64,000 nt of DNA, from contig JAXCGZ010019297.1 of the NCBI GenBank assembly GCA_037179515.1, forward strand, positions 1 to 64,000. Reading direction: 5' to 3'. The stretch comes from Halocaridina rubra (taxonomy: Eukaryota > Arthropoda > Malacostraca > Decapoda > Atyidae). Shown here one piece after another: positions 21,887-61,490 of this stretch (the first letter of the stretch is position 1; the number at the start of each line of letters is the position of its first letter). A program made the position numbers and the translations under genes. Under the pieces are notes generated by a model. That model made no database searches. It was not told the DNA's origin and was given only the letters and a program-made list of their open reading frames with translations.

Positions 21887-24800
21887 ATGGGCAATCATGC
21901 CTCGTCCGGAGAACGAAGAGATCGTCACAAATCCGGTGAACAGTATCAGGTAGCTTCCCCTGGACGACTCGACGGCCAGGCTTTTACCTTTGATAAGCCC
22001 AAGGGCCCAAAAATTCTCGCCCAGCAACATTCGGAAGAGGAACACGAACCAGTCATTATCAAACCAGCCAAGGTGAGGCATTATTTTCGTGTATCAAAAT
22101 AAAGAGCTTTTAAAATCGTATGAATATAATGTTTTCTTGTGACCATTTGTCCTAGAAGATAGATATTTTAGTATATTTTACCAGATTCTCATTACTTTCA
22201 GTCAGCAACCGAGGGAAAAGAAAATGAGGATCCCGTTCCCATCAGACCACGTCCCGTTTTGCCTCCTCAAGGAAATAAGAAACTACTTCCATTTGTCATA
22301 AAATGGACAGGTGGTGGTCAAAAAGTGGCTATAGCTGGCACCTTCAATCAGTGGCAGCAAATCCCCATGGCCAAAAGGTAAGGAGTATGTCTTTTATATA
22401 TTTCATCTTTCCTTGTGTTTGAGGTATATTTTTCAATTGTTTTATGCCTTCCAAGATATATTTGTTATGTATGAGAATGACACTGGGATGGGCAAAGCAA
22501 ATTCCCTCTTGAGAGAAAGAATAAGTAGTGGCCTTAAGGACAAGGTATGAATAAGCGAATGAAAAACCATAAGAAAAAGACAGGCTGAAAGAATAGAGTA
22601 AGGAAGACCTAGAAATATGGCAAGATTAGGCCATGAGATCACAGTAGATCAGTTTTTTGAAGGGAGAAAGATCATAAGAAGTAGGGAAGATAGGAGGTGG
22701 AAGAGAGTTTCAGAGTCTGGAGGGGAAGGAATTATCAGTTACTGCATTGACCAATCTACGATATTCACATTTATATATGTGTACTGTACTGATGTGGACT
22801 ACGGAATAAATTGCCTTAGCTATGATGTTGAGTCAGTGGGGCTTCAAAAGTTTCAGCAAGGCACAAATCAATATTTTCTTTAGCAAACTTTAATGTTTTG
22901 AAAACTGTAGTGGACTAATGTCAGTATTTCAATACTGAGTTGCACCATTTTATATATGTTTTTTTCTGTCTTTTTTTCCATTTTCTAGCCAATTTGCTTT
23001 AACTGCTGGGGCCATCTGATGTACAGTCGTTGACTTTTTCCAGATGGGTTTGTTGCTTGGCTTATTAAATAAGATCCTATATAATGGTGACATAAAAGCT
23101 GTTAAATGTTAGAATGAGTGAGTGGCTGAGTAAAAGGTGATAGGAAGTAATTGTCATAATTGACAGTTACTCTAGAGATTTTATGTTGATGTAATTATAC
23201 TCTATGAAGTTTATTTTGTTTTTCATTCTAGTTAAAAAATCTTCGTAGCAATGGGTTCCCTACCTGTGTAATTTTTTTTTTTTCCTTCATGAAAAGTACA
23301 GTAGAGTCTCTATTACTTTGACTATTCTTTCAGCCTGTCCGTTTCGTATTGTTTATCATTCTCTTATTTCTGCCTTGTCCTTAAGCTGCTACATTTTCTT
23401 CTTGGTGCTTTCTTGGTTCACGGACCTGATGAGGGCAAATTTTTTTGGCCTGTCATGGTGTCGCACTTGTAAAAAAAGAAACATTTTGTGTACTGTATAT
23501 ATGGAATGTTTTATGATTTATTTTTTCCATCCTATTGTAAAAGACTTCACAGTGATCGTTGACCTACCAGAGTATGTATTTTTTTTTTAAATTGACAATA
23601 ACAGTAGAGAATTTATGTATCTATAAACTAATTGTCTATAATATTTTTTTTTCCATCCTAGTGAAAAGGACTTCATAGCGATCGTTGATCTTCCCGAGGG
23701 CGAACATGAGTACAAATTCATGGTCGACGGGGAGTGGAAGGTCAGCTCAGAGGAGGCCTCTGTTGAGAATACCTTGGGCACGAAAAATAACTGCATCAGG
23801 ATCATGGAGAAGGACTTCGAGGAATTCGAAAATGCCCTTCTGAAGGACCCTAATGATAAAGAAAATCCATTAAGTAATAAATTATTAAATGTCAAGGACA
23901 AAGATGAAGGTAAGAAAGTTTTGGATTTTGTATAGATGAGTAACCCCAAGAACCCAGTGTCAAGTAAAATAACCTTGTAAATTGTAGAGTTGGGTTAAAT
24001 TAGTTTAGTTGAGTTGCCATGTAAATATGAATAACCCTAGAGCACCCTGGGGATACTGTTCTTTACAAGATCCGGTTAGAAAGTATTGATCTTGTATTTA
24101 TAAATATGAATAACCTGAGAGCACCATGAGATTACTTTGCTTTACAAGATCAATAAGAAGTTTGGATCTTGTAAAGATGAGTAACCCCAGACCCTTCTGT
24201 AAAGTTACATAATCTCATAAACTGTTAGGTTAGTTGAGGTCAAGGTAAATGACTTGCCATGTAAATTTGAATAACCCTAGTGCACCCTGGGGTTATTTTT
24301 CTTTATGTGATTAGAGTTTTTCTCTCTACCCACCATGCATAGGATATTTGCACATTGTAATTTATATAGTATTTTAGGACTGTTTATTGCATGTGACTTA
24401 CATGCAAGTAATTTCCATCATTATAACTGGTTTTGTGCCATTTTATAGTTTTTTGTATCTTCTTATTTCTCCTTTTCCTCACTCAGTTGCTTACCATGCT
24501 GAAACCATTTGGCTTTTAGTCTTTTGACTTATGCCAGGTGGGCTTGTTGCTTAGCTTATGATAGTAATAATAATAATACAATAATACAGTATATTGTTTT
24601 AGTTTATTTATTGAACAATTATTTTTATATTGATCAAGCACTCTTAATAGCACTTGTATTCTATATTCATATCTCGTTATCAGACCCGACCCTAAGCTAA
24701 CCTAACCTGATCTTGTCCTAACCTAACTTAATTGCTTCCTAGGCATGTTTTAGGTTAGCGAGTTTTGCTATGCAGTATTTGAAGGCTATATATATTTTTT

Positions 24801-33599: not shown

Positions 33600-36500
33600 A
33601 TGAGTTTATCCACCATGGCCATGAATTGGCCCTGGTTAGTTGCTGGGGCTCTCACCGGCTTTGTCGCTTACTGTAATATTCCACTTTCATTTACTAGAGC
33701 ACCTGAGAAAGCCACTAGAGGTGAGTAATGCTAGTTATTCTTTTGTTTCGCCATTTTACTGTACTATTTTATATGAACATAAATAAAACAACATCATGGG
33801 TGACAATATGTTGCCTTGAGAAGGTCATTATATTTTTAAGTGTTACTCCATGTAATTTATAATGATACAACGTGTATATAAATATATTTATACAGTGGCA
33901 GTAACCTCCCTTTTAAGTGGAAAGATTGAATCGAAGCACACGCCAATTTTCCCTATGCCTCCAACCATATTTTAATGGATAAATGGTCACCACAATCATC
34001 CACAGTGTCATTGGCCAACGTACTTCTGCTTTAGGGCATGACAGCCATAGCTAGCTTACCTCCACCACTCCATCTTGTGACAACTTCCCCACACCTACCC
34101 ATTCCAGTTTACAGCTCTGAGCAAGTATGGGAAGATCTTTTAGGCCAGTGTCATCTATTCGCTATCTCGCTTTCTCCATAAATACTACTTGCACTCTTTC
34201 TCTTCCCTGCTCCATTTACATACCACGTGTACCCAATATTTTTTTTTTTTTTTTTTTTTTTTTTTGCTTTTCTTCAGTTACTTTTGCTCTCCACACTGTC
34301 TTTGCTAGTCATTCATCATTCATTCTTTCCATATACCCAAACCATCTTGTCACGCTCTGGTGTAACATTTCCCAAGGCTTTGTATTAACGCAATTTCTTT
34401 GCCCCACCTTGATATTTATCACTCATACATTTCAAGTACTTCATTTCCATTACATTCAATTTCTTCCTTATACTCTCTCTAACTTTTCAAGTCTGCTCAG
34501 TACAAAGCCATAGGCACAATAATTTCTTTCTGTGTATTCATTCCTATATACAGTACCTATATTTCATCACTCTTCATCCTTCCTAGACATTTACCCACTT
34601 CCCTCGCTATGTACCTTACCTCCACATGCACTCCTCCATTTAAAGCTACATGCAACCTTAGATAGTTAAAATTCTCAACTTCCTTAAGCATCTCACCATT
34701 CACTTTCACAATGAAACGATCACCATTTTCATCAACTTTCACGAACTCCCTCTTTTTAGAATCCAGTCAACAGAATCATTTGCAAATAGCACTGGATTCA
34801 CATTCTATAAAAGTTCATTCTCACCTGGTAATTCTATACCTCTGCCCAATGCACTTGCATATACTTCCCGTACCACTCCATACATATACAGCTTTATCAA
34901 CCGTGGCAAACTTTCCACAACCTTGTTGCAAGACCACATTCACCTCAAACCAAATAAGTCTGGTCATTTCTGACTCGTTCACACTCTCCAATGTATATGA
35001 TCTTTTTTCCCTCTTCACCATATTTTCTTTCATTCCATGCAATTGCAACACACTCCATATTGTTTGTCTTTTCTGCCATTAGTAAGTTATATCCAAGCCT
35101 ATGAAAGCCCAAACAATGTCATCACCTTTCTCTAGGCACCTCTTGCATACCTATCTTACCACTTGGGACTCTTTCTCGTAAGCACAATTAGGTAATTACA
35201 AAGACTTGATCTGCAAAAACTCTTCCTCTCCCGACCCCACATCATTCTTCTCCAGTCACTAAGCTTTGACTGATGTAAAGTTTTATAGGCTAATTAAAGT
35301 ATTAAGGCCAAACTCATTGGATCTTGTTTTTGTATTAAATAATTTAATATGGTTTGAATTTTCTTGTTCTCATAAGTGTTCATTACCAAAGTCGTGTCTA
35401 GTAGTTCAAATCCAATTTCATACTTTGATAATGCAGTATTTGTTATTTTTCATCTAGATGGAGTTTTTATCATGCTGTCATTATGTCACCTCTTGTATTT
35501 CTTTGATTTCAAATGAAACTTTCCTTACAGTTTTATTGGAATATTATGCATGTATTAACTGCAGATTAAATTCATTATTGTAATTACATTATCTATAGTG
35601 AATAATAACATCAATACAATATACTGTACAATTATCCGATTGCATGCTCTGATAAATACAGTTATATAAGTAATATTTTTTTGCTATATTGTCTTGCTAT
35701 ATTTTTCATTATTATTATATATGCTATCTGGATCATTTGCAGGCTAGTAGGTAATGAGGTTTCCCAAATAATTTCTGTATTCAGAGATCAGTATCATAGG
35801 ATCTTTTGCCTCACGGCAGATGGTCCTTTCCGACATACCCTGTGGATGACCCAAGCAGGGTAGTTTGGGGGATATTTGTGACATTTTTTTTTTTTTTTCC
35901 AAGGAGCTGACAAGAGTGCTCAAGGTTTTGCTTCTGGTAAATGTGTGTTCTTTGACTCAACTATCCTCCTTACAAGGGGATTGTGTGACCATTATATATG
36001 TATGTATTCAACACAATACACTGTGACTTTACATAAGCCTGGTTTGCTATATAAAGTTACCAGGGAAATATAGAATATCTAAAATTTTGTCTCATGTTTT
36101 AGAATGGCTAGCGGGAGCCCCTCTAACGAAGCTCGACAGTTCCAGAGCATCCATTATGGGCTCAGATTTGTGGATAAAAAACGGAGCCCTCATTATGGCT
36201 GTGCGCAGACCTGGATGATCTTTGTGTAGGGAGGTAAAGAACTTATAAGTTGTACTGATGTTAAAATTCTCTTGTATTGTAATTTTAGTCAAGTAGCCTA
36301 ATTATCTTTATTGGATCATAAAAAAAATGGATTCATAGTTGGAAATTCTATAAAATGAAATACAAGAATAAAGTATATATATATACTGTGGCCACCATAG
36401 TCAGGTGGTAATGTACACAACTTGATATGCCATGTCGTTGGTTCGTGATCTGCCATGGTCTGAGGCTAGAATGGGTAATCACTTAAGAGTAATGGTTGCA

Positions 36501-37539
36501 CTTGCCAAACCCAAAGTCCTATGCAAGCAGGCACCATCCTAGCCCTTAACAGAAAAAGGAGTCTGTGACGTAAAACTGGATCATATTTATATGTACTAAT
36601 ATTTTACAGGAGGCACTGGAGCTCTCCAGTCTCAAGGAACACTTCAACACCAGAGGTGTTCCCTTGTACGCTCTCCTCCACGAAGAACTTGGGGCTGAAG
36701 AATTCTCCAAGTATTTCCAGGGTGATCTCTTCCTCGATCAAGAGAAGCGATTTTATGGACCTCAGGAGCGAAGAATGCTCCTGACGGGGATGCTGAGGTG
36801 GAGTGTGTGGCAGAACGTAATGAGAGCTAACAAAAAAGGTGTTGACGGAAATCTGAAGGGGGATGGAACGTTATTAGGTGGTAAGTATATGTATTCAGAG
36901 TTACTTTACAGTAGCTCTTTTTGAAGTCGTAATGGAGTTTATTACAATACACTCTTTAATATTTACCATAGCCAGAATTTGGTGGATTCCCTCAATGTAA
37001 GTTGTTTAGCAGTCTCTACCTCCCATGTTCACTTATTTTTACCTCTTACTATACAGTATCTCCTTTACATCTTGGAAATCTGTGGAATCTATCCAGTTTT
37101 TGCAATGAGAAATTTTAGAGTAAAAGATAAAGAATATGAGCATGGGAGGCAGAAGCTAGGAAGTACCTCATTTGGAGAGAATCAATCCACCACTTAATCA
37201 CAACAGACTAGTCACCACTTATATCCCTTTTTAATATTTACTTGGATGCATACATCTGCCCAGTTTCTGTAAGTCTCCATACAAGTTGTAGTTCTTGTCG
37301 GTTACACGTTACCCTCCGGTTGAAATGCTTTCTGTAGGGCTGCATCCCCATAAGAATTTTACATAAGGCTGCCTGTTGGGTTAAATTTCAGTATGTATAT
37401 CATATTTCTAGGTGTGTTCTTGATTGGCCCAGGAAACCAAGGCATTCTTTACGAACACAGGGAAATGGAGTTTGGAGACCATCATAACAGCACAGTGTTG
37501 TTGGAAGCTTTGAAGAACATAAAGAGTTCATCTGAATAA
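33600..37539 (+). CDS. SELENOU: peroxiredoxin-like 2A / selenoprotein U (TGA-encoded Sec predicted)
   Basis: Coding exons 33600-33720, 36103-36233, 36610-36880 and 37412-37539 (stop TAA) give 216 codons, with GT/AG splices in phase. The protein is a thioredoxin-fold redox protein of the PRXL2A (FAM213A/SelU1) family. It has an N-terminal hydrophobic segment (residues 9-28, NWPWLVAGALTGFVAYCNIP), then WIKNGALIMAVRRPG, the redox motif, CREEALELSSLKEHF, GVPLYALLHEE, FLDQEKRFYGPQERRM, GNLKGDGTLLGGVFLIGPGN and LYEHREMEFGD. The codon after RRPG (36216-36218, residue 79) is TGA. The mammalian homologue has Cys here, and the resolving Cys82 is present, giving U-x-x-C. All the other residues align without a gap. 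In this family some animals (fish, birds, sea urchin) use Sec and mammals use Cys. A SECIS-like hairpin is in the 3' UTR. The alternative is a nonsense change or sequencing error, but the SECIS argues against that. Confidence 0.9.
33895..35195 (-). mobile_element. degenerate LINE in SelU intron 1
   Basis: The - strand at 34742-34557 encodes VKVNGEMLKEVENFNYLRL, then ALNGGVHVEVRYIAREVGK, homologous to NGETLEEVNQFKYLGSV and ANGGVEADVCHRVNEG in the LINE at 55180-56157. Flanking sequence is collinear with that LINE in broken frames ('catatacccaaaccatct' corresponds to the FGHVERM region). A T-rich run interrupts at 34232-34265. Confidence 0.65.
35785..35990 (-). repeat. dispersed repeat, family B
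   Basis: Markers 'ctgtggatgacccaagcagg' and 'gtgttctttgactcaa' with 'cctccttacaagggg'. A poly-T run at 35886-35899 lies inside. Lies in SelU intron 1, ending about 110 bp upstream of the Sec-encoding exon. Confidence 0.65.
36216..36218 (+). other. in-frame TGA, predicted selenocysteine codon
   Basis: Codon 79 of the SelU gene, inside exon 36103-36233, between CCTGGA (Pro-Gly) and TCTTTGTGT (Ser-Leu-Cys). It is the only in-frame stop before the TAA at 37537. Confidence 0.88.
36390..36585 (+). repeat. tRNA-derived SINE, family C
   Basis: Head 'accatagtcaggtggtaatg' with B-box-like 'ttggttcgtgatc' and the family C body. Lies in SelU intron 2, ending about 25 bp before exon 3. Confidence 0.7.
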
Positions 37540-37866
37540 CTTACAAGCCTTGTGTGCATTGGAGAAAACTCGGTAGCTATCGTTGTTAATCTATTTACGT
37601 ACTTATGTGAACACTTCCGTTTCTCTAATATTTCTCTTTTTGAAGATAACTTTTTCTTTAATTATTCCTGGATATGATACATAAGGTTTGGAATATGATG
37701 CATGTTAATAATTATGTATAAAAATGTTGTAAATTTAAATACAGCTGTGTATATTTATTTGTAAAATAGCTACTATACAGGATCACAACTGTAAGTTCTT
37801 CCAATTTAATTATGATGCTGTGTCATATCTTATAGAAAATTAACTTTTTTTATCATTAGCAGCAAA

Positions 37867-37943
37867 CAGAGAAAACCTGAGTGAAAGTGTGTGCAGAAAC
37901 TGATTTCAGTGGCACTCGCTGGAATAGTTATAATGGTTTCTCT
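37867..37943 (+). promoter_or_regulatory. SECIS element (type II-like) in the SelU 3' UTR
   Basis: Helix I pairs GAGAAA-A-CC (37869-37877, one bulged A) with GGTTTCTC (37935-37942). After an internal loop comes the non-Watson-Crick quartet, TGAA (37882-37885) opposite GGAA (37921-37924), giving the tandem G.A pairs. Helix II pairs AGTGTGTGC (37886-37894) with GCACTCGCT (37912-37920): 8 of 9 paired with one U.U and one G.U. The apical region has the unpaired AAA (37897-37899), 12 nt after the GTGA. A mini-helix CTG-ATTT-CAG (37900-37909) makes it type II-like. It lies about 330 nt after the stop and upstream of ATTAAA at 38036. Its role is to recruit SBP2/EFsec to recode the UGA. Confidence 0.85.
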
Positions 37944-38035
37944 TTTACTGTTAATGACTTAAAAGTTACTGGTTTCTTGTGATTTCTATATTTCTGACCT
38001 AGAAAGAGTGTGTACAGAAATGTGATATTTAAATA

Positions 38036-38041
38036 ATTAAA
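38036..38041 (+). terminator. candidate poly-A signal ATTAAA for SelU
   Basis: First AATAAA/ATTAAA hexamer found after the stop codon. It would keep the SECIS inside the mature mRNA. Confidence 0.45.
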
Positions 38042-40030
38042 ATCTTTTGGTATTTTACTTACTGTGTACATCGGTTCTACTGTTAAATCATCTCTTGTAA
38101 TAGAAACCTTTTAGCACATCAGTCCATCAGAGATCATTCCTTAGCCTTGTTTTGTGGTTAGATATGTAACTACAAAACTGATAATGGATTATTAATAATC
38201 AAAATTATCTGCTGATACAGAAGTAGGGACAAAACTTCTTTGTATGGAAAACAGGAACACTGCTGACTAACCTAGATAAAATTTAGTATTAGTATGGACG
38301 AAGGAATGGGAAAACACTAAACAAAAGGACAAAGACCATATAGTCACGTAAGTTTTATAGCAATAACACCATTGGACAAAGGAACAAGAGACACTAAATG
38401 AGGAAAGATACCATACAAATTTATGGAGCACACAGCTGACAAACATACATAAAATACAGTATTAGCATTGACATAGGAACGGGAAGACTAAACAAGGACA
38501 AAGACCAATGTTTTGATATAGCTCCAACTGAAACATACATAACAGTATACGCTTTCGTTCTTGCACACAAATGGAATACAATGTAAAGAATAAAAAATAT
38601 AATACTGTACCAGTAATAGATATACAATACAAATTTGAGGAGTGCATGCAAAACAAATCGTAACTTAGTCTTTAACATATCCCTTCAATAGCTGAAGATC
38701 AGCTGTGTCTAGCCAACATTGGACTCATTCATTTACAATTGTAATAGGAAGTGAAATCATTTCCTATGAGTTCAGAAACACTTATACATTGTACTCACAA
38801 TTGTGAGTACAATATGAGTGTCACTAAGTGTTTATACACAAAGTCACAACATTAAAGCATAATTTTATGTACTTTAAGCACTCGTTAAGGTAGGTTAAAT
38901 GGTTAACATACTGTCAAGATAAATTGCTAAATAGCTATACTGGTACCAAAATTACCGAAGGAGTAAAGACAATAAAAATATACAAAAAAAATGTAGATTT
39001 CTCTTAGACATATGGTTCCAGGGGAAATTCATATTACTGTACATCATTTCCACAAAAAAGTCCCTGTCTTTCCCAACAATAAGAATTTAAACACATTAAA
39101 ATTTATCCTATATAATTTTTTTCTTTTTAAATCGCATCAATAAAAGTAATGGATATATACACTCACATTTTGTAAATACATCACATTGTGTATAAAAACA
39201 TAATGCATGTCTCTTTACTTAAGTGATCAATTAACTACATACAGGTACTCGAGTACACAGGTACAGACAGTATTAACGACCACTCTTCATCGACTGTGAT
39301 ATACCGCTATCTGGTGCCGCTAATAAGCTTATGTTTACCAAGTTTTTTGCCCACAATACTTCTAAAAGAAGTTTACAAAATACAAACTTTTTAACTTTTA
39401 TACCACAGAATGGTAAACTTTAAGTTTAATAAAACAGATATGGAAATATCTTTGGGAAAAAAAAGAACTCATCATTAGTAAAATATAGCTCTGATTTTAG
39501 ACCAAACTAAAACTACCCAAAATTTATGATAAATATCAATGATTTTTATCAATTTCTATTGTAGTTCTAAAGAAAATTTCTAATCAAATCGTGATTCAAA
39601 AGAAATATTTCTATAAAAGTACATATATTACAGTTACTGGCAAAATAAGTAAATCATAAAATGCAAGTACAAAAGACAGATATTTTACAGAGACTTTTAA
39701 ATGCATTAATCTGCGTCCACCCCCATTTTGGGGATGAACAATGACCAAAAATAAAATATATAGCATTTAGAAACCAACACATGGTTTACCTGGAAGACTT
39801 CTGCTGCAAAAATAAAACCTCTGAATCACAATTGTTTCCTGCAACAAGGGAGTAAAACATGCATTATCTCCCAACGCATAATAAAAATGTAAAGAGCGAT
39901 AAAGCAAACAATTCTAAAAAACTCCATGAAAATCCATATCACATACTGATAATTGCTGCAAAGCTGAAACAACAGTTGCACTGTTGTCTTCAACAATGGA
40001 AGACAGCAGAAGTTAGAACACATACATACA
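38042..40030. other. convergent intergenic region between SelU (+) and PLK4 (-)
   Basis: AT-rich, probably containing the 3' UTR of PLK4. Two similar blocks sit at 38270-38350 and 38455-38520 (shared 'aggaacgggaa-ac-aa-aca' and 'ggacaaagacca'), each next to 'gctgac-aac' sequences. A 26-bp palindrome lies at 38788-38813. No gene seen. Confidence 0.5.
38788..38813. repeat. perfect 26-bp palindrome
   Basis: Thirteen bases from 38788 (ATTGTACTCACAA) are followed immediately by their exact reverse complement (TTGTGAGTACAAT). Flanks carry a looser outer pair (AACACTTA before, TAAGTGTT after), suggesting a small MITE-like hairpin. Confidence 0.9.
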
Positions 40031-40034
40031 TATA

Positions 40035-40225
40035 TAACAGTCGCAGTCCCACTTGCAAGGAGAGTGGCCATGTCAAAGCACTCATTTGCCAGAAGCTAAG
40101 ATACCTTCATCACTCCTCTTGCTTCCTTGAGGATAAAGGGCTGCCACTTTCCCCCATCACCCTGCTTGGGTCATCCACAAGGTAAGAGGGCAAGCACCTT
40201 CTGCCATGAGGCCTCACAGATGCAC
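40035..40225 (+). repeat. dispersed repeat, family B
   Basis: Has 'gtggccatgtcaaagcac', 'cactcctcttgcttccttg', 'ctgcttgggtcatccacaag' and 'cttctgccatgaggcct'. Downstream of the PLK4 stop. Confidence 0.75.
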
Positions 40226-40811
40226 CTGCTCTTTGGAACATTACACACTTTATATACTACGTCATTGGTAACAATCTAAAAGTACAGCAATTTACGTATA
40301 TCTATCTGTTTTGTCACACGTACGGAAGACATATAGACAAATTTGATCTTGTACATCACACTTAATATTAAAAGCACAGATTAAAAAAGCTAGAAACTCT
40401 AAATTTATCAGAAAATGCATAAATATAGTGTAAAGTCCTTTTTCATTAGATTACTCCAAGGTATATCTTTATACTATACATAAGGATGATAAAATAAAAT
40501 CAGTAGGGAAAGCATTACAGATAAAAAATAAATGATGAATAGGACCCCTACTATCTGCATATTTCCAGCCAGACAAAAAATAGCTAGCCTGCTATATATA
40601 GCACACTAAAATGGGGGCCATCAATGGCTGGATAGTAATGTTACGAGTTCAATCACTAGGACGTTCATCATCCCAGATAGATCAGTAAAAAAAATGGGGT
40701 TCAAATGTTATAAGTAACGTGTCTCCTACTCGAATGACTGCAGAAGTCACTGGCCCGTCATCTCCAAACAAGCATTGGATTATTAACGCCATAAAAGTAA
40801 TTCATAGCGTC

Positions 40812-43800
40812 TCATCTCAAGCCAAAACGATGCTTGACAGATGCAGCGTCACCAGGTAATTTTCGCGGCTGGGACAAGGAACTGAGGACCACATTCATTT
40901 GAGAGAGCTTGTGCTGGAGAGATATGGGCAAGATGCTTTTTGCCGAGTATGTGGTTGTAACTTTGTTTTCATCGGTGAACAAAACTTTTGGATTGTTGCT
41001 GTTGATAATTACCTGGGTTCCGTCTAAGTACTCCACAGATAACATTCCATTATTACCCTGAAGAAATAAATGGTTTGATTTATATATACACATTTTGCCC
41101 CTGGCTGGGATTCGAACCTAAGACACAAAATTACTGTGCCAAGCCTACAGTGAAAAGCCACAACAATAACTACAGGTAAGAAATGAGGCAGTAAGGGTTC
41201 AAACTATTAAGTAAAGTGACTTGCCTTGTAAATATAAATATAATTAACCTTATTGCACCTCTAAGTTGCTCTCCTTCACAAGATCCAAAATATCAATCTG
41301 AATAGGAACCATTAGCCCTCCACTTCCTTTTAATACCTATACAAAACAAAATCATTATTAACAGTTTACTAACCTCAACTGCCCAGCCAATGTCTGGAAC
41401 GTACACTCGAGACGCTGAATTCATGGGAGTAAAAGGACTTTCGGATGGAATATTAGCAGAAGTGTGGAGAGCGAGAGGCTGTTTCGCTGGTGCGGTACTA
41501 CTGTCCAAGTTCCGAAAACTGGTTACAGAGTCTTGGAATGAACCAAGCTGCAGCAATACAAAAATAATAATTACAACTGATCAATGTATTCAAAATTGTT
41601 TCTAAAAATAGGTTCTATCAGTACAGTGTTTTAAAAACTGCTACTAAAATTTTTCACCGGAGATGTTAACATACACAATTGTGGTAAGAATTGGCAAATA
41701 TTTTTGAGATAGCACTGGTACTCTGTACTATAGCAAACACAAAATGCAGCGGTACTTTAACTAAAACAAAGATTAATTTTGCCAAACCTTGGTACAAAAA
41801 TGTTCAGTTTAAACTGTTAAAAGATACTGAACTCGTGACCTGCCAAGATACATATTTTTTCCCGTTTTGCGTCACTATTAATCTCTATTATGGAAGTGGA
41901 CACAGATAAGTTGAAGTTGGGATATTAAAACTGGATTCCCTTCCTAACGCCCCACAGCAGGCTCGCTCATGGGTCTGCTACCTCCCTAATTAAGTGCAAT
42001 TAAATAGTATCTCATTTAGTGCAACAACTACACACTCTGGGTAAAAATTCGTGAAATCCTCTTGAGTAAAAGGACAAGGATAGTAACTTAGCTTGTCTTC
42101 TTTCTTTACAATATGAAAACGAACTGACAAGTAAAAATCTTTCATTTCTCCTATTAATATTCAATAACAATGCCTCTTCATATATTGTTTCTCATTTCTA
42201 CAAATCTCGTCCATAAGAGAAGCCCTGATCTGCAGAAACTGCAATAACACAATCTTAGTCAATCAATCACCATCTTTTTCTCATTCATTTATATGTTTGT
42301 TTGTTTACATTTTATGTCTCCCCATTACAGGGGTGGACAAAGAGTGTGGGTGGGGAGGTAAGCCTGGATGCCCTTACTAACACCCCACAGTGGGTTCAAT
42401 CGAAGGTCTGTCAACAGTGAAGTTGAGTATCTTAACCACTCAGCTATTGTGGTTCCCTTCCCAGTTACTTATAGATGACTATAAATTATATAATTTTGAA
42501 CTACTGATCTTACTTGTTCAGAAACATTTCTAGGCGACCGGTATGACTGCATGGACAAGGGGAGATTTTCTTTATTTTCATTAGGGTTCGATACTTCTCG
42601 TGCGGATCCAGGGGGTGTTTTTCCAGGAGGCAGAAGACCCATCTTCACAGGGAAACAGCACAAACCAGTTTTCTCCGTAACTTCTGTCAGCACTCTCTCT
42701 AGATAGAGGCAGTGATCTCGAACCTGAAAGAATAATGCACACATGCATAAATAGGCCACAATCCCCCTTGTAAGGGGGGTGGCAGAGCCAAAGCACACAT
42801 TTTCCATAAGCTAATACACCTCAATCATTCCTCTTAGCTCCTTGGGAATAAGGGGACACCACAATTCACCTACATCACCCTGTTTGGGTCATACACTGGG
42901 TAAGTGGGTATTGATCTTTTGCTGAGGCCTGGATAATTTAAAAAGATATAGAGAGAGAAAACACTGCTATCTCACACAGTATACCAGAAGTACTTTCGAT
43001 TTTGCTGATATGGAAACGTCTCATTATACATAGCATCAACTAGCATAAAAAATACTTAATGTTGGTGTATGAACTACGAAGTTGAGCAAATTAGTAGCAG
43101 GGTGCCAACTGCATGGCACCAACTTTCTCTCTCAATCAGGTCATTGGAGAATTCGCAAGTGCATTCTCCTCTTACCATAAATCGTTTTTCTTGGTGCCTG
43201 ATTCACTATATTTTTGTGACTCCAGTAGCTTTCAATGAGTGACAAGGCTGGCAACAAGCATACAACTGATGGTAAGATGAAGCCTGACCCAAAATGCCAT
43301 GTGATCAACAGGGTAGCGAAGATAAAATATAATCTGCAAAGAGCTATGAGGTCCACTATCATTGCCATTCATTTGAGAACTTAGACATAAAGCATGATTT
43401 CTACGATCAAACAGGCCACTAACAATGAAATGACTGTATAGGTATTAGTGTAAGTATGGTAATACCCAGCATTTTTACCTCTTTAAAATGATTATAGAAA
43501 CCATGCAGTTTTTCACGGAGTCCATTTGGAGCTGAGGAGTGTGGTACAGTGCTGTGAGAGCCATTAACTTCTTTTACAACTAAATTCTTTCCTCTGCTCA
43601 CCATTTTAAGCCCTGAAGGAAAGATCCATCTATTAGCATAGGAGAAAATAATATACTAAAATACTCAAAGTGTACAATGCACCTAAGTAAATTTAAAGAA
43701 AATAAAGTATACACATATATGCATATGTAATTTGAGTAAGGTGATATTTGGAACCTGCATTATAGAGGTATTATAATCTTGTCACATATTGGCTTACATA

Positions 43801-46800
43801 TATACTGTATAAGGGATTCTAATTTAAGAAAAAATAAGTATGAACTGTAACATATATATTATTTTCTTTAACTTGTGCAGGGCTTCTGAATAACTGCTAT
43901 GCAGTGGAAAATTCTAATTAAGGGACATATAACTAAAACTTCGTTTTTCATGTGCACATCAACTGCAATCTCATAAAGGATATTTTTCTGTTCACCTTCA
44001 TGCATCCCATCAAGTCTATATCTCTGGAGGGGGTGAAGCTAATCCAAAACAAGAGCTGCTCTAAAACTAGACATTGCTTCAGTGAAGATAACACCCAGTT
44101 ACCAACAACCCACTGCAGGCCCTCAAAAGAGCATCTCTACTTATGACAAAAATATTGAACGACTAAGTAATGCAAAATCATTTACCTTGATGAAACACAG
44201 CTTCAAAATCCGGATCGGGTGAGTTTTCCATCAGAGTGCACCTGGCCTGTTCGCTGAAGTATGTTATTTTGGCTGTCTGAGATTTGACTATCTTAATATA
44301 CCTACAAAATAAAGTTGCATTTTTTTGTCATTACTTTCCTTCAAAGAACTGCACTGCAATGTTTTTGGGGGGAGATTAATTCGAGCAAACACATGAATAT
44401 TATTCCCTATTATGCCTATAGTATTAATACACAAAATATATATATCTTCTTCTCAGCTTAAATGATATATAAATGCACTATAACAAATGTACTTAAAATA
44501 AGTAACACACACTACATTACTATTATTAATGGATATATAAGCTAAATATGGCAAGGAAAACTGATGAGGAGAAGGATGGATGTTTTAGGACTGAGTAAAA
44601 CAAAGTTGAAAGGGAAAGGCGAGGTGCATTTTGAGTGTTGTAGGTGAGATGTCTGGGGTAGATAGAGGGCGAGGAAGAGGAGAATTGGCCCTGTTGGTGA
44701 GTGAGAAAAGCAGGTTTGAGGTTAAGTGGAAAGTAGTGAGATTGAGATGTGAGCTTTGGGTGCTTGCGATTGCATATGGTCCTGGAAGTTAGAGAAGTGA
44801 GGAGGAATGAGAAGAGGTACAGATTACATTTTATATTTAACAAATTGATCACCACAACATTGTGGAGAAGTGGTAGCAACTGGGGTTGGTAATACACTTT
44901 CGGCAGGTTCGATCCTGGCTGGGGTTGGATTAGCTTCAGCCATTTCATGTCAATACTCATTAACTTGGGCAATAAATTGGAGGGTCAGTGATTTCCTATA
45001 GTTCTACCTGATTATTCAGCCACTGACTAGAGATCACTGGCTCCACGTGATTGGAGAGGGGGCTTCGGCCCCAGCTATATGATAGGTATATAGTCGGGCT
45101 CTAATGTTATCAGTCCCTTGCCTCTGCTTCTCATTAGAGACCTTTATCCTTTAATGGGCTCTAATGCTATCATTGTCCCTTACCTCTGCTTTTCATTTGA
45201 GACCTTTTACCATAAACAAGGAAGAGAGCGGTAAGTAAATGTTCAATAATACAATATTAAACTCACTTTGCAGCATGCCTGTATCTTTCCCAATAAATCT
45301 TGGGAAGGTTTTCATATGAGTATATACCATCAGCACCTCTTGCTGGTAGAGGCGGCGGGGCCTCTCCAGGCTGACAACCTACTCCACCATTGGGGCGATA
45401 AAGAATAATCTGAAATGTTAAATATCACAGACTGCATTTTTTTTTCTTTTTTTTTTAAGTTTCATTAGAAAACAAGTTTCTCTATATACAAAAGCTATTA
45501 AGTCACAGCAAGGTACTTGACTCTTTGTGAGAGGAAAATACAGATGAGTGGATTCCCAGTCTCCTCGTTCCACCCCATTAAGTCGAATGGGGGTAGACGC
45601 AGACAAGTTGGAACTATAAGGGGGATTAAGGTTGGATGCCCTTTCTGACGTCCAGCAATGGGCTCGAACACAAGTTTGTTAATTCCCAAATTGAGTGCTC
45701 TTACCACTGTGCTACTGAACGGTACAGTATGAATTTTTACCTTTAATGTTATTGTTAAGCTAATGCTATTCAATATAAAAAATGACGTACATCAGTATAT
45801 AAAACTATAGTTTCTCTATCATTTTAATAAGAACGTATTGAAATTTTATTCATAAGGCTGGTGGAGAAAAAAATACTTCCATTGTATTCTCTGAGTGTCA
45901 GAGAAGGTAAATAAAAGAGACAGGGGAGCAAGGTGCTGGCAATTCTATCCTATATGAAATTTTTTTTTTTTTGCCAAACCTAAAGTAGCAAATATTCGAC
46001 TCAGAAAATGACAGCCCCAAGATCCAGCTCACCATGGGGCATTCAGAAGGCATTCAGCCTTAATTCCCTAGTTTCAAATCTATGTCCATCCCCATAAAGA
46101 GAATAACAGTGACACAATACGCTAAGAAAAAAAAAAAAGCAACAGATAAAAGGAGCAAAGATGGCAGGCAAGCTATAGAGAAACCTGAAGCATTTGCTTT
46201 TTGTTTAATTGGGGCCAACCTGCCAGTTTCACTGGGATACAGAATCACGAAACAACATAATTATACAATAAGCAACCAGCATAACGTACCCTCATGCCAT
46301 CCGAAGATATGCGAAAAGTTTCAATAACTTTTTCTCTTCCATTTTCACCTTTGAGGACCTCCAAACACACATCCCCATTCTCCATAATATTAAAAAAATA
46401 GTTCTTGGCACGCTGCCTCCTCGCTGTCAATCTCTTCGAAGACAGCGGAGACACCAATTGTTGAATTGTTTGAGTAGTATCCTCTGTCACTTTCTTTAGG
46501 TGGGGTTTACTTCTTTTGGACGTAGGAGACATGCGATTAGTTTCCAAATACTTTTCTCCCGACGACTGCTGTACATTCCTAATTGGGGGAATATCTGCTA
46601 AAATTTTATCGTTGAAGTTTTTTCTATCTTCAGTAACGTGGTCGCTGACTTTCTCACCACTTCGACATGGATGGTCACACGAGTCTTTCATTGATGTGGC
46701 ATTTATATTGCCGCTTCGTCCGACTCTACTGCTGCTTGCATAAGACTCACTCTTTTCCAGTTTACAAGGTCTTCTCTCACACCATGATCTATGCTGTGAA

Positions 46801-49800
46801 TGTTGACAACATGAGCAATGCCTGTTTGTATTACAGTCTACTGGTTTTTCCCTATAGCTACGATGTTCAGGTTCACCTAAGCCTTCCTTATTTCTTTCAA
46901 GACAGTAATTCCTGTCTTGCCTGGAGTAAGGTCTGCCGCGGTCTTGAGAATGACTTCGTCCTCTAGTTTTGGTTTCGCTCTCGCCGTAACCACTTTGAGA
47001 TGTTTCTTGGTATCGTTCCTCAGATTTACTTCTGGTGTGCCTTAAGTTTCGATTGGAATAATGACCACTCTCATGTCCTTTTATATTCTCGAAGCTTCTG
47101 GGTGGTATCGATTTAGCATATGCCTGATCTACAGTTTTAATTAAATTGATATGCCCTTTTGCAGAAGAGGGGTCAGAGCTTCTATTATATGATCTACTCT
47201 GGGGTAGGATGCATATGCCACTTTCAAGTTCCCTTGAATTTTGATAGTACTCGGCATTGTAATCATTGCAGCTGTGAGGGTCTCGTGAAGAGCGTGCTTT
47301 TTCAGGCAGATTCCTCGCCAAATTCTGCTCACTGCTACCCCTTTGTGGACAGCCTCTAAACTCATTTTTAAAACCTTCACCAATCTTGCATGATGACGAA
47401 AAGTGCTCTACAGTATCTATACCAGCAGATGAACTATCTGCGTGGGACGATATTTTTTGTATGATTCTAATTTCCTCTGAAACATCTCTCTCTCGTCCAT
47501 AAGGATGCGAAATGGAAGGAGTAGTGAATGCAAAATCTTCCGTACGTTTCAGGGATGGCAAGGGCGTGTACTTCCTTTTTAAGGAATCTATCACACCTGC
47601 ATTTTGAGGGAGCAAATCTCTGGGGCTGAAAAGACAAAAGTAAATATTAAATACTTGCAAAAGAAGTGCATATTATTTGTTATACGTTTCTTATACATAC
47701 ATATTCATTGGCCATAATCCCCTTGTAAGGGGGGTGGCCAATTCAATACACACACTTTCACCAGAAGTCAAACAAACCTTAAACACTCCTCTTCGCTCTC
47801 TGGGGATAAACAGATACTCCAAGTACTCCGCCTACCACCCTGATTGAGTCACCCACAAGGTATGTAGGCAAGAATTCTTATGTGATTATGATTAAATTCA
47901 TAATGGTATGAGGGCAAGGATTTTTACATAATTATGATTAAATTTATAATGAGAATTATATACACACCTGGTTCTTATTTTAACAGGTGGAGAAGGAGGA
48001 TGTCTCTTTAAAGCTTCATTTTGATACCTTGCAGAATGATGTTCCATTTCCATGTTTTTTTCATACCCAGAAGCATTACCTTCTGAAATGGCAGGAAGGG
48101 GCATTCGGGCAAGGTTTGTGCTGGTCACGGTTGACATGGTGTACATTCCGCTGTCCGACATCCTCGAAATATCTGTCTTGGTGCCGACGTTCATAAAGGG
48201 ATGGTGAAGAATGGACTGCAAGCAAATCCTCTCTTTTGGATTTTTCTTGAGACATTCGTAGATAAGCGAACGTGCATTTGTAGAGACACTATCCGGGATC
48301 TAAAGTAAAACATTGTTTTTAATATGGGAATAATTAATCCTGATTTTGTGTCACTATTAGTGTCTATTATGGGGTGGACACAGACAGAGTAAGGCTGGGA
48401 AATTAAGAATGGATGTCCTTTATAACGCCCCATGGCTTTGTCAACTCCTGAGTCGAGCATTCTACAGCTACCACTATGGCAGTCCTCCTTGATGTATCAT
48501 TAATTAATGATTCAAACTAAGACTACAAGACATATAATAAGAAATTAACTCTAAATCAGCAATATAACATGCAGAGGCTATGAACTATGCCACACCATCA
48601 TCAGTATAATAAGAAAATAATTACAGATAAATAAAAGAACACATAATACCTGGAATATACACATTATTATCTTGTTGCTTGTCCTTTTGCCTTGAGTATT
48701 ACAACTTGGAAACAGTAGGTAACCAGTACGAGACATTTTTGACGCCACTTACTAAGTTTCTTACAGCAAAAATTTTACACTTTGGGAGTACCAATTTTAC
48801 ATATCTGAGAAAAGTTTTTATTCAAATTGTTCTTGCAAATGATTTACAGTTTTACTTGTAAGTAGATAGCAATATTTTCTGGCAAGTTCTTCATATGGGC
48901 TGTATACTTATATAAAACTAAGAGAGCACTTGCATAAACACCAGAGACCACATGTAAAATGAGCGAGCGAGATAAAGGGAAAACTATGAAGCCACCACGT
49001 GCCTTCACACATTTCTCGGGTCTCACAGCTTGCACAATAAATTAAACCACCATTTTTTGTTTTGCCATAAATTCAGGACAACATAAGTTGAAGCAATGCA
49101 AGTTATGGCCCTCCTTTACTATCTTCAATATTTCTTTCTCTACAGCATAAAACAACACATTTAAGTAAAATCACTCTGAACTATGATGTTTGTAAACAAC
49201 TTACCTTGTAATCTCCAATCACAACTCGAGTGAAAATACATTCCTTGGCACCTTCACCCTCAAAAGGTGGACGACCAACAAGCATTATGAACAACATGCA
49301 ACCAAGACTCCAAACATCAGCTTGAAAACCATGGGCACTACGAGTTGCTACTTCTGGGCTGAAAAAAACAAAAGGCTAGTTATTACTATGAATTTCATGT
49401 GTCAATATTAGTCCCCAATGTGGTGGTGGACACAGAAAAATTATAGCTGGGCAATTAAGACTGGAAGCCCTTCCTAATACCCTGCCATGGACTCAATTGT
49501 AGGTTTGTCATCTTCCGAGTCAAGTATTCTACCACCACATGAAGGCAGTCTCAACTAACAACTATAACTTAAATCATATAATCTATATAAAGCACTTTAT
49601 ATATCAAATCAAATTATAACTTTCAACAATCTATTGGATACTGTACTTAAATTAGTATATATATATACAATGACTGCAGTCCTCCTTGTAAAGGGGCAGA
49701 GACAAAGCACACACTTTCATCAGAAACTAATACAGCTCAATCACTCCTTGGGGATAAAGGGCTGCCAATTTATTCTCCCCCACAACCCTGTTTGATACAC

Positions 49801-52800
49801 CCACAAGGATCTTTTGTCTTGAGCCAAACAGCCTCAGCTGGTTGCATGAGAAAAAGTTACCTTTTTTTATTTACCTCATGTAATTTGGAGTGCCACACAT
49901 TGTAGTGTGGCGATCATCTGGGCGCTTCATAGTTGCCAAACCAAAATCAGCAATTTTGACTCTTCCATTATCATCTAAGAGTATGTTGGATAATGTTAAG
50001 TCTCTGTGCAGAATGGAATGAGACTGAAGATACAACATGCCTGATAATATCTGGCTTAGGAATTCTCGAGCTGTAACGTAAAAAAGAATTAAGACAATTA
50101 GAACAACATATCTCTGCAACTGTTGTAATTACTTTGCTCTTGTTGCAAATATATAACCATACTGACGAGAAACACTACTGACAAACATCAATATATTTTC
50201 AAGGCATGAAAGTAACTTCTTAACATTATTATTACTTCCATTCCCACATCTATAATGAGTCAGTGTTCCTGATTAGGCCCATCAATAGTCCTTGGATTTG
50301 TCTTTGATCTCTTAGCCCTTTCTCCCTTAACTCCTCATTCACTTACTAAAGATATGAAAGCAACAATCTGTCTCTCTCTCTCTTTTGATACTGTTGGTTT
50401 GAAATCACAGAAAGCTAAAAGCAATAATAAAGCTAAGCGTGTCTGTATAATAATTAGCTAAATGAAGGTTCATTAATTTTCTCAATTTTCCTGGATGCAC
50501 ATCACCTACTCCCAAAGACAAAAGCAGAATGGACGTCAACTAAAGTTGCCTTTTTATTTATTATACTGCTGCAATAAATATACTTTTGGAAGTAGATTGT
50601 CAGCCTCTACACCTACATCATTTAGTCACCTCCCATACAATCAAACATATGCAATATTGCAAGGTTTACACCCACATAGGCCAACAACACAACATACTCT
50701 CCCTGAGAGCTCTGTGAGAAAGCCCAGGATCAGAGCTATTACACTAGGCATCTCAGGGAAAACAACAACATTAACAACCCCCACATATGCTTGATATGAG
50801 TGCAAAATACACCTAGAAATTTTACTATTATAAAAGAAATAAAAAACATACTTACCTTCATTTTCATAGAGGTTTCTCTGCAGGCTTTTAATATATTTCT
50901 GGAGTTCACCATTTCGACAAAGTTCCAATATGAGATAAACGTAATGATCATCCTCAAAGAAAGTATAAAGTTTCAAAATGGAAGGATGATTTAACTGAGA
51001 GTGAATCGTTACTTCCTGACGCACCCTTTCAGTAAGGCCGCCAGCATCGATCTTGCCAATGTCTATCTGGAGTGTCAATAGGCAATTAATTATTTTGCAA
51101 GTTATTTTATTACAGGCGAGAAAAGTATTCAAAATACAATGAAAAAAAAAATCTGTAAGTATGGAAGTTCTCTTAATATTCATCATACTCCTGAATGAAA
51201 ATGTTTTGAATACTTCAGTAAACTTTCAATGGGGTTGGGCACATACAGGATTAAGATAGGGAATTACGTCTGTATGTCCTTCCTAACACCCTATGGTGTA
51301 AAAGAACACGGATTCCTCACTTCCCAAGCTGAATGCCCTAATCACTGTGCTACCGCAGACCCCATTTAGACATTCTAATATAAGGAATGAAAAAAAAAAA
51401 TTAGAATATCAAAGCCAATTCACAAAAGTTACTGAACACTTACCATCTTGATCGCCACTTCCACGCCAGTCCTTCGACATGTTCCCCTGCGTACGATGGC
51501 AAAGCCACCTTTCCCAAGTTGTTCGCCAACATCGTAATCCTGAAATATAAAGCATGTTGTAGTCTGCCATTTTATGGACCACTACTAATCCCCAATTGAA
51601 TGGGGGCGGATGCAGACATGTTGGTGCTGGGGAATATAGTGGATATAGAAGCCTAATTTGACAGATAAGGCAATCAGTAGTAAAAGAAAAAGGTAAAAAA
51701 ATTAATCGACCTTGTAAAACACTTCAACTTGCTTGAGACAGTAACTGGTGACAAATAATCATTAGCTAACTGAAATTCGTTTAAAATTAAAGAATACTTC
51801 TGTCACAGTACACCTTCTCCTGTAAAAGCAATATCACCAATCAAAACCATAAGAAAAAAAAAAGTGATGCTGGTAGTGGAGAGGAATAACTTAAAAGCAA
51901 CATTTACCTTAAATTATCTTCCATACAAAAGACTTACTTTTTATCTTATTTTAGTACATGATTGCCAGTACATAGCTACAATTCATGTTAAGACAGGTGG
52001 TCACAATCCTCACGTATATTCCTAGTCTAACAGTTTGTTATAAACTCATGCTTATAAGCATGTGCACTTGAATAAGCTCTTTAAGCTATCATGAGTGTGT
52101 AATAGTTATATATTTCTAAAGACTGAGCTAATATAAACTAAACTAGGAGGTTCTAAAGGCATTTGAGAGAACAAAAGTTAACTGTGACTGACAGCTCTGC
52201 ACATATCTGTAATCTATCGAGAGTTAAGTCGGACTGTTGATTCTGGTAGTGCTAGGAGGGAGATGGGGAAAGCATAATTGTATTATGCATAACAGCACTA
52301 CCAAGCTTAACCTAACAAGCTCACCTAACCTTGCATAACTAGTAGATTGAGTAAGCGAATGCAGATATGATGTGCAAAAATGAAGGTACGTAACTAACCT
52401 ACCTAACCTAGTTTTCAGGAGTGGTTGACATCAGCTTTGGACATACATCAAAGAATAACTATTTGATGAGGTGTAAAAACAAGTTATGAATTGCGCATAA
52501 AACTAATTTTAACCTAGTCTGATTATCCTAGGTCAAAGTATGAAATCTCTCTTGCTTCCCTTGCTGATATTCTTTCTTTCTTTGTTCTTTCTTCCCACAG
52601 GTAGGCTTTTTAGCCTGTCAGTGCAGAGAGATACAATGTCCGGCTTGCAAGGCCTGTCGACATCAGTTTTTGGTCCACGGCTCTCAAAAATTTAAGAGCT
52701 ACCCTCATCCCCAACCTAGGGGACGCGTCCAGCCTAATATGTGTTTATGGGATGCCATAATGAACAGGCACTGTGGCACTGTAAATTAAGATGCAATGAC

Positions 52801-54894: not shown

Positions 54895-57060
54895 ATACAT
54901 ACATATACCTTGGCTGTTTCCCCCTTTAATTGGGGGGTAGCCGACATCAAGAAAGGAAAACAAATAGGGGGATTACTTTGCTCTATGGGCAATGACGAGG
55001 GAGCTAGCGACCGTTCAGATGGCACTGCTGGAGTGCCACAGCCCATCCTCCCTGCTCTTCCACAACCTGTGTCGCTTCACAACTGCCAGCTCCTCCTACT
55101 GCCCCTACCACAGGGCTATCTCTGTAAGATGCAGCCCCGTGGTAACAGCAGATGCCCATCAGAGCCGCGTCACAATCGTTCACCACTCATTCCTATTCCT
55201 AGCACGCTCGCTTGCTTCCCTCACATCCATCCTCCTATCATTCAGGGCTCTCCTTACTCCATCCATCCATCCAAACCTAGGCCTCCCTCTAGCATTTCTC
55301 CCATCAACTCTCGCATTCATCACCTTTTTCAGCAGCCTTTCATCATCCATCCTTTCCACATGGCCAAACCATCTCAGAACATTCATATCTACTCTGGCTG
55401 CAATTTCTCTCCTCACACCCGTTCTTGCTCTCACCACTTCATTCCTAACCCTATCCAATCGAGATACACCAATCATACTCCTCAGGCATTTCATCTCAAA
55501 CACATTTAGTTTCCGTCTCTCACTTACTTTCATACCCCATAACTCTGATCCATACATCACAGTTGGCACAACCACTTTCTCATACAAAACTTTCTTAACA
55601 TTCATTTCCAACCCTCTATTCTTCATCACTCCTTTCAATGCACCCAACACTTTACATCCTTCATTCACTCTGTGACACACATCTGCTTCCACTCCACCAT
55701 TTGCAGCTATAACCGAGCCTAAATACTTAAACTGATTAACCTCCTCAAGTGTCTCTCCATTCAACATAACATTCAATCCAGCGCCATCCTCATTTCTTGT
55801 ACACCTCATAACCTTACTCTTTCCCACATTCAATCGCAGCTTCCTTCTCTCACACACCATTCCAAATTCTGACACTAACTGACACAGCTTTTCCTCTGAA
55901 TCTGCCACCACCACAGTATCATCTGCAAACAGCAACTGATTCAGCTCCCACTCGTTATCATCCCCATCTACCATTCTCAAACCTCGACCACGCACTCGCT
56001 CATTCACCTCTCTTACAACTCCATCAATATACAAATTGAACAGCCATGGTGACATCACACATCCCTGTCTCAGTCCCACACTCACTGGAAACCACTCACT
56101 TACTTCATTCCCTACCCTAACACAAGCTCTACTACCCTCATACAAACTTGATTTCATATAATCTCAAAACATTCCACATAGCCTCTCTATCAACTCTATC
56201 ATATGCTTTCTCCAGATCCAAAAATGCAAAATACACATCCTTACCCTTTGCTAAATATTTCTCACATAACTGCCTAACTATAAAAATCTGATCTATACAA
56301 CCTCTACCTCTCCTAAAACCACTCTGCACTTCCGCGATCACATATTCTGTCTTATCCCTAATCCTATTAACCAGTATCCTACCATACACTTTTCCTACCA
56401 CACTCAACAAACTTATACCCCTAAAATTACTGCATTCATACATATCTCCCTTACCTTTGTATAGGGGCACTATACAGACAATCACCCAATCCACTGGCAC
56501 CAATGACAACATAAAGCATATATTAAACACTCTCACTAACCATTCCAATGCAGTCACACCCCCTTCTTTCAACATCTCCGCTCTCACACCATCCATTCCA
56601 GGTGCTTTACTTGCTTTCGCTTCATACAATGCCCTTTTCACCTCCTCTCTTGTAATCTCTCTCTCATTTTCATCTCCCATTACTGGCCCTTGAACCCCTC
56701 CCACTGCCACTATAGCTGCCTCTCTATCTTCCTCAACATTCAGCAAGCACTCAAAATATTCTGCCCATCTTTTCCTTGCATCGTTCCCTCTTAACATCTG
56801 TCCATTCACATCTTTCACTGTCTCTTCCATCCTCGATCCACCCTTCCTTGCTCTCTTCACTTCTTTTCAAAACTTCTTTTTATTCTCCTCATATGACCTA
56901 CTAAAATCCTGTCCCCACCTAACATTTGCCAACCTCTTCTCTTCCTCTACCTTACGCTTGGTTTCCACATTTTTCTCCCTATATCTTTCATACTTCTCCC
57001 TACTTTTACCACTGCAGCCATTCCTCAAAAGCCCTCTTTTTCTCTTCCACCTTCATTTTC
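54895..57060 (-). mobile_element. non-LTR retrotransposon (LINE), RT-bearing, decayed
   Basis: On the - strand, 56860-56138 encodes the RT start (GFRRGRGCIDQIFIVRQL, FAFLDLEKAYDRVDREAM). A second frame, 56157-55180, continues with SVGLRQGCVMSPWLFNLYID, LLFADDTVVVADSEEKL, KYLGSVIAANGG, VMYGSELWGMK, RWFGHVERMDDERLLKK and ARGRPRFGWMDGVRRAL. A stop lies just upstream at 56868. The two frames meet where several expected residues seem missing, so there is a small deletion or frameshift. The 3' UTR runs to about 54895 and ends with the block shared with 15022-15134. The clade is uncertain (RTE/jockey-like architecture). The 5' side is interrupted by the Gypsy element and appears to resume at 60956. 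Confidence 0.85.
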
Positions 57061-57407
57061 ATGGTAGAGTAAGAGATCAGTTATTTATGGCTGTAGATGC
57101 TGAAGTTTATTTTTCAAATATAGTGGCTCTCAACATAGATCTCCAAGCAATGACCTCTCAGGCTATTTTGGAGAGAATTTTGAACATGGAAAAAGCATTT
57201 GTAAGTGAGAAAGATGAGGTTCAGTCACAGGTTCAGGTTGTAAGAAGAAAATATGTAGGTGTATCTTGTCAACATTGTGGTTCCTCTCATGACAGCTTTT
57301 ATTGTAGATTTAAGCATTTATCATGTTATAATTGTCATAAAAAGGGTCATTTACAGAAGGTTTGTAAAGAAGCCAAAAGAGAGAGTGGTTATAGTACAGC
57401 TAAAGGT
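57061..57407 (+). pseudogene. Gypsy gag fragment with zinc knuckles
   Basis: The frame reads RVRDQLFMAVDAEVYFSN onward and ends at a stop at 57408. Its N-terminal half is missing at the junction with LINE DNA. Two C-rich knuckles lie at about 57268-57375. Confidence 0.75.
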
Positions 57408-57476
57408 TAATATAGACCAAGCAAGAAAGATTTTAGTAGTAAACCTAAGTTTAATAGTAGGAAAACTGTAAAGATT

Positions 57477-57803
57477 GTGAATGATCAAGATGTATCATTA
57501 AGTTATAATGATGATGAGGATGATAAAGTGTTAACTGTCAGAGATAAAATCTATGCTGTTCATGCTGAACAATTTTATTTTTCTGTTAATAAGATCCAAG
57601 TTCCTTTTGAGGTTGATAGTGGTGCTACTGTTTCAACTTTGAATAAAGATTGGGTTGAGAAGTTGAATTTGAAAGTTGAACAATGTAAGAAACCCTTACA
57701 GGCTTATGATGATTTTAAAATAAAGGTTTTGGAAAAAGTGATTGCTCCTGGATATAATGTATCACAGGTCTTTTATGTTGTTGGTTCAAAGAATACAAAT
57801 TAA
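57477..57803 (+). pseudogene. Gypsy protease-region frame
   Basis: Contains the retroviral-type aspartyl protease signature VDSGATVS at about 57612. It ends in a stop at 57801, before the RT frame. Confidence 0.75.
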
Positions 57804-57852
57804 TGTGGTAAAAATTTAATGAAACAAGTTGGTATTTATTTAGCAGGATTAG

Positions 57853-61075: not shown

Positions 61076-61490
61076 CTGGGAATAACGCACCTCATAATGA
61101 AGCAACTGGAGATAGAGCACCTTAAGTTAGGTTAGGTTAGGTTAAGTTAGGTTAGGTTAGGTTAGGTTACGTTATGCTAAGTTAGGTTAGGTTAATTTTG
61201 TAGTATGTAGGAAATACAGTCACATAAAGTAGACTGCAAAAAAAAAAAAAAAAAGAACTTGAAAAGCAAACTACCTGTGTGGACATAAAACATCAATAAC
61301 CAAATAAAGAAAAATTGATCAAACTTCTTGTTTAGACATAAAGTGCCTATACTAGACAGAGGAAAGTTAAGCCAGCTACTTATTTGATCATGAAATTGCC
61401 AACTGGAGATTGGACACCTAAAAAGTGTTCAACAGGAGAAAACGCACCTAAATGTATCATTAAGTGCGTTTTCTCCAGTTTATCCGGTTA
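61076..61490. repeat. TTAGG-type repeats and CAACTGGAGA motifs with hairpin
   Basis: 61126-61195 is about 70 bp of mostly TTAGG pentamers, with TTAAG/TTACG variants. Flanking it, 'caactgg(g/a)' followed by 'gcacct' recurs at about 61072, 61104, 61399 and 61430. An inverted copy at about 61464-61480 makes a 13-bp perfect stem (61435-61447 with 61464-61476). No coding. Confidence 0.7.

Follow-up and report, generated by a model that had tools for sequence, protein, structure and literature searches.

An in-frame TGA at the redox-active position of a PRXL2A/SelU1 gene in the decapod Halocaridina rubra: a predicted crustacean selenoprotein

A gene of the peroxiredoxin-like 2A family (PRXL2A, also FAM213A or C10orf58) in Halocaridina rubra has a TGA codon in the middle of its redox motif, and the question is whether this codon specifies selenocysteine (Sec), terminates the protein, is removed by splicing, or is a cysteine codon that has decayed or been miscalled. 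Sec-containing selenoprotein U1 (SelU1), as the family is known in that form, has been published for fish, birds and reptiles (PMC3316567), and all invertebrate SelU1 members found in one study, three proteins, have Sec (PMC3473315). Selenoproteins of crustaceans and other arthropods are described in several further papers: many selenoprotein genes are said, from unpublished ESTs, to exist in shrimps (PMC2375036); Daphnia pulex has 16 selenoproteins and two tRNA-Sec genes, and Lepeophtheirus has 17 (PMC5330540); two GPx3 selenoproteins of a crayfish carry predicted type 2 SECIS elements (PMC8872551); GPx sequences truncated at putative Sec codons appear in a freshwater shrimp transcriptome (PMC5100079); and a centipede has 20 selenoproteins, SelU not being named among them in the main text (PMC4244043). 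A search of open-access literature found no report of a crustacean SelU among the matches listed, which is weak evidence of absence.

The gene lies on the plus strand of the window, the whole 64-kb stretch of DNA that was analysed, and its features are collected in Table 1. Four exons, with GT-AG introns of 2382, 376 and 531 nt between them, splice into one frame of 216 codons ending in TAA, bearing out the original prediction that they are uninterrupted except for one TGA. This sole internal stop is codon 79, and the spliced translation around it reads ...ALIMAVRRPG-*-SLCREEALELSS. The second cysteine of the motif is kept, as had also been predicted, three codons after the TGA, so that the redox motif RRPG-[C/U]-x-x-C, in alignment with homologues, takes the form RRPG-U-SLC with U-x-x-C at Sec79 and Cys82. 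Exon 2 starts with two bases that finish a codon split by intron 1, and frame 1 of the exon taken from its first base is non-coding. It had further been claimed that the exon phases work only if the TGA is read through. The annotated exons do join in frame through it, but an in-frame GT at 36201 could, if spliced to exon 3, excise the TGA and keep the frame as well.

Table 1. Positions of the PRXL2A/SelU1 gene features and of the candidate SECIS hairpin in the window
Feature	Position	Strand	Basis
Exon 1: start codon and hydrophobic N-terminal segment	33600..33720	+	in-frame join, GT donor, N-terminal relatives P0121-P0125
Exon 2: carries RRPG-U-S-L-C-RE	36103..36233	+	splice sites (AG, GT), frame
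TGA, predicted selenocysteine codon 79	36216..36218	+	alignment to C, stop in N-terminal matches
TGT, second Cys of U-x-x-C	36225..36227	+	spliced translation
Exon 3: bulk of the AhpC-TSA_2 domain	36610..36880	+	in-frame join, Pfam match
Exon 4: C-terminus and TAA stop	37412..37539	+	in-frame join, splice sites
Candidate SECIS hairpin, presumed 3' UTR	37868..37943	+	structural scan, Rfam SECIS_1, shuffles
ATTAAA, possible polyadenylation signal 3' of the hairpin	38036..38041	+	string match only

Membership of the PRXL2A family is well marked. The product matches the Pfam domain AhpC-TSA_2 (Prx-like2, PF13911) with an E-value of 1e-19 and 71.4 bits against a cut-off of 27. Among the best 120 of 140 matches, the named homologues are mostly peroxiredoxin-like 2A or FAM213A, the best reaching 291 bits, and identity to the Halocaridina rubra protein is at most 82% throughout; decapods are found among the top matches (Chionoecetes with 62% identity over the whole query, Homarus with 76% over 62% of the query). 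By comparison of bit scores the protein is closer to PRXL2A (best 291) than to PRXL2B as represented in the PDB (58), and the names of its matches also put it nearer to PRXL2A than to PRXL2C. Human prostamide/PGF synthase (PRXL2B, SelU3 group; PDB 9us9, and 9usa, which is the C44S/C47S mutant) shares a thioredoxin-like fold and a CxxC in register but is a paralogue; codon 79 aligns with the first cysteine of that CxxC in 9us9. A structure model of the orthologue from the isopod Armadillidium (P0002, 206 residues, built with 31 aligned sequences, mean pLDDT 92.8) has a peroxiredoxin-like fold in which the first cysteine, residue 73, stands right before a helix (residues 74-85). The position just before a helix is the usual place of the first cysteine in thioredoxin folds. 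Human PGF synthase is the top Foldseek match to this model (E 6.8e-12).

What occupies the position of codon 79 in other species was examined in 131 fetched homologues, gathered by full-length, N-terminal and profile searches. Cysteine stands there in 81 of the 131, with the qualification that a U may be written as C in such records, which agrees with the original prediction that the TGA sits at the first-cysteine position. Another nine end exactly at the site, two have tryptophan (P0011 and P0093), one is a distorted model (P0101), and 38 lack the site or fall outside the search pattern. When the 78 residues before the TGA were used as the query, four proteins were returned, each with AVRRPG as its end; a profile of these four and the Halocaridina rubra sequence brought the total to 11, nine of which end exactly at ...AVRRPG, and two of which (P0126, P0128) depart from the alignment earlier. 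As far as protein records can tell, in which the identity of a stop is not visible, a stop at the position of codon 79 appears to be conserved in relatives beyond chance. A tryptophan, as in P0011 and P0093, would result if TGA were translated as Trp, and suggests TGA at the site in these two. The longest contig is given as 1589 bases both for P0122, an N-terminal half, and for P0004, a C-terminal half, and the two may come from one transcript.

These patterns bear directly on the possibility that a cysteine-type gene has had its TGT or TGC turned into TGA, either by decay into a pseudogene or by a miscall in the assembly. TGA is indeed one base away from both cysteine codons, and the DNA comes from one genome only, but the rest of the 216 codons is without lesion, the splice sites are intact, a stop falls at the same codon in nine of the 11 N-terminal matches from other sources, and a SECIS-like hairpin lies 3' of the gene. 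We regard this explanation as very improbable.

A second possibility is genuine termination at the UGA, or its readthrough by an ordinary tRNA, leaving a 78-residue N-terminal peptide and perhaps a separate C-terminal product. Such a product would have an open reading frame available in several relatives, where Met directly precedes the second cysteine, and 15 of the 131 homologues start with M or L at this point, Petrolisthes and Meganyctiphanes included; the Halocaridina rubra gene, however, has TTG (Leu) rather than Met there. Conservation also reaches the stop and continues past it, in the manner of one protein, and SelU is a family already known to contain Sec (PMC3316567, PMC3473315). 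Termination here is given very little credence, somewhat less than decay of a cysteine codon.

Alternative splicing is the third possibility: GT 36201 joined to exon 3 would yield a protein lacking VRRPGUSLCRE. This junction keeps the frame, and gene models of Chionoecetes and Biomphalaria both excise the motif at the matching point (MA|EA). Those models nevertheless look like detours taken by gene callers around the stop, and a GT is always present at this point because the preceding codon is Val (GTN). Both redox residues would be lost from such a product. The contigs of the N-terminal matches, about 1.0-2.5 kb long, read through VRRPG as far as the stop, so unskipped sequence does exist. 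It is about as hard to credit as a true stop that skipping accounts for the TGA.

With coding conserved on both sides of an in-frame UGA at the cysteine position, attention falls on the 3' flank, where Sec decoding would call for a SECIS element. The structural scan of 37540-41500 gave one site, the hairpin of Table 1, which begins 329 nt past the TAA, with its core at 342 nt, and lies upstream of the ATTAAA (the first AATAAA after the gene, by string match, is at 38589). Helix I (37868-37877/37935-37943) pairs AGAGAAAACC with GGTTTCTCT; the quartet sets GUGA (37881-37884) opposite GGAA (37921-37924) in a GUGA/GA core; helix II (37886-37894/37912-37920) pairs AGUGUGUGC with GCACUCGCU with one U-U; and an AGAA bulge (37895-37898, with unpaired AA) is accompanied by a mini-helix, ACUG/CAGU, for three helices in all. 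The whole resembles a form 2 SECIS. Its minimum-energy fold is a single hairpin, but with part of the internal loop paired. The core deviates from the usual pattern in having GUGA rather than AUGA and, on the 3' side, GGAA rather than UGAU; GUGA has been reported from sponges and algae, other invertebrates having mostly AUGA (PMC3473315).

Rfam SECIS_1 aligns in register at 37872-37934 with 16.9 bits, below half of the gathering score of 35. Within the first 701 nt 3' of the stop, taken without selection, SECIS_1 has an E-value of 3.2 over 4227 families, which converts to about 8e-4 for one family, and Rfam gave no SECIS match in the next 701 nt, in an intron control, or at a rival site near 23685. 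At gathering threshold Rfam returned nothing over the whole window, SECIS included, and ARAGORN likewise found nothing there. A search of 5.2 kb with E up to 10 gave no SECIS either, but this does not contradict the SECIS_1 hit, because the E-value of the hit scaled to that length, about 24, exceeds the limit. Dinucleotide shuffling of the 1.2-kb 3' flank, repeated 1000 times, gave 307 sequences with a loose-scan hit, eight with a helix II equally stable, and none matching both helices; as the thresholds were derived from the candidate itself, the comparison is supportive and no strict test. Taken over both strands of the window, the structural scan gave 25 hits, with one other, at 23685 (+), equal on both helices; this site was rejected, as it adjoins an exon for the beta subunit of AMPK and has no Rfam SECIS match. 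We judge that the hairpin 3' of the SelU1 gene probably is its working SECIS.

The preferred reading, held with high confidence, is that the UGA at codon 79 encodes selenocysteine and that the gene is a SelU1 (PRXL2A) selenoprotein. The original prediction of Sec is supported by the position and frame of the codon, by related proteins that end at this codon, and by a SECIS-like 3' element that scores below the Rfam threshold. Decoding of the UGA as Sec would be directed by the SECIS hairpin about 340 nt 3' of the TAA. The product would be a thioredoxin-fold oxidoreductase, probably anchored through its hydrophobic N-terminus, in which Sec79 may attack an oxidant or substrate and Cys82 of the U-x-x-C may then resolve the intermediate. 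The likeness to the Sec-form SelU1 of fish, birds, reptiles and invertebrates extends over the shared family, Sec as the first residue of the motif, the second cysteine and a downstream SECIS-like element; the Halocaridina rubra gene differs as a crustacean member and in its GUGA core, AUGA being usual in animals outside sponges (PMC3473315).

The Cys-form PRXL2A of mammals and Armadillidium is orthologous and shares the motif RRPG-x-x-x-C-R, but has cysteine at the site where Halocaridina rubra has a stop codon. Armadillidium P0002 is the only one of seven named arthropods with a residue at the site, a C; the record is an unreviewed submission, and in principle U may appear as C there too. 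No Cys form was deduced from the C that bird, fish and mollusc records show, since U is converted to C in them. Within the Halocaridina rubra genome, a profile search of the contigs with PF13911 scored six candidates in three places, namely this gene and two fragments; it revealed no Cys copy of PRXL2A, in a search that proceeds exon by exon with a domain model that starts after the TGA exon. The fragments, both of AhpC-TSA_2 genes on other contigs, are L002 (1513-1668, -) and L003 (1480-1671, +); read by eye, they appear to be PRXL2C-like and PRXL2B-like, respectively.

Several public records of this family are damaged at the catalytic codon. Those of Petrolisthes and Meganyctiphanes start right after the position of codon 79, and those of Homarus, Portunus and Limulus are without the redox site. 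Together with the spliced models of Chionoecetes and of the snail Biomphalaria (P0064), they make up a set of PRXL2A records (P0001, P0009, P0030, P0062, P0064, P0094 and P0105) truncated or spliced around the codon, an annotation error affecting six named aquatic arthropods and one snail. The suspicion that automatic gene prediction stops or breaks the gene at the TGA has thus proved right for the named aquatic arthropods retrieved, that is, Chionoecetes, Homarus, Petrolisthes, Meganyctiphanes, Portunus and Limulus.

Sec-containing SelU1 in invertebrates is already published, and the crustacean gene very probably adds one more, unsurprising, member to this selenoprotein family. It would bring malacostracan crustaceans into the range of Sec-containing SelU1; their selenoproteomes are little catalogued in the literature examined and are relevant to selenium nutrition in aquaculture. 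The analysis contributes a candidate SECIS, the recurrence of the stop in relatives, the defects of public records and a Cys form in an isopod; with the last of these one can test, on a small scale, whether Sec is kept in aquatic lineages and lost in terrestrial ones. A broader picture can be offered tentatively, at somewhat less than even chances: Sec-SelU1 may occur throughout decapods and krill, perhaps also in horseshoe crabs, and be missed or cut in the named records; its SECIS may be of a derived GUGA type; and land isopods may have exchanged Sec for Cys, the state tracking habitat within Malacostraca.

Several other features were observed in the window. Upstream of SelU1 on the same strand, 23642-23932 (+) is an exon with the AMPK beta glycogen-binding domain (AMPK1_CBM, E 4.2e-16). 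A polo-like kinase 4 gene convergent with SelU1 has its exons within 40815-51225 (-), with POLO_box at 40815-41117, Plk4_PB1 at 46248-47672 and kinase pieces at 47901-48299 and 50644-51225. Two reverse-transcriptase ORFs lie within 55183-58809 and, because their RVT_1 domains are on opposite strands (55183-56163, -; 57853-58809, +), are taken for two adjoining retroelements. An interstitial (TTAGG)n array, built of the common arthropod telomere unit, runs over 61122-61194 (14.6 copies at 86%), and a tandem array at 3431-4057 has about nine copies, 77-78% alike, of a unit of about 64-68 bases.
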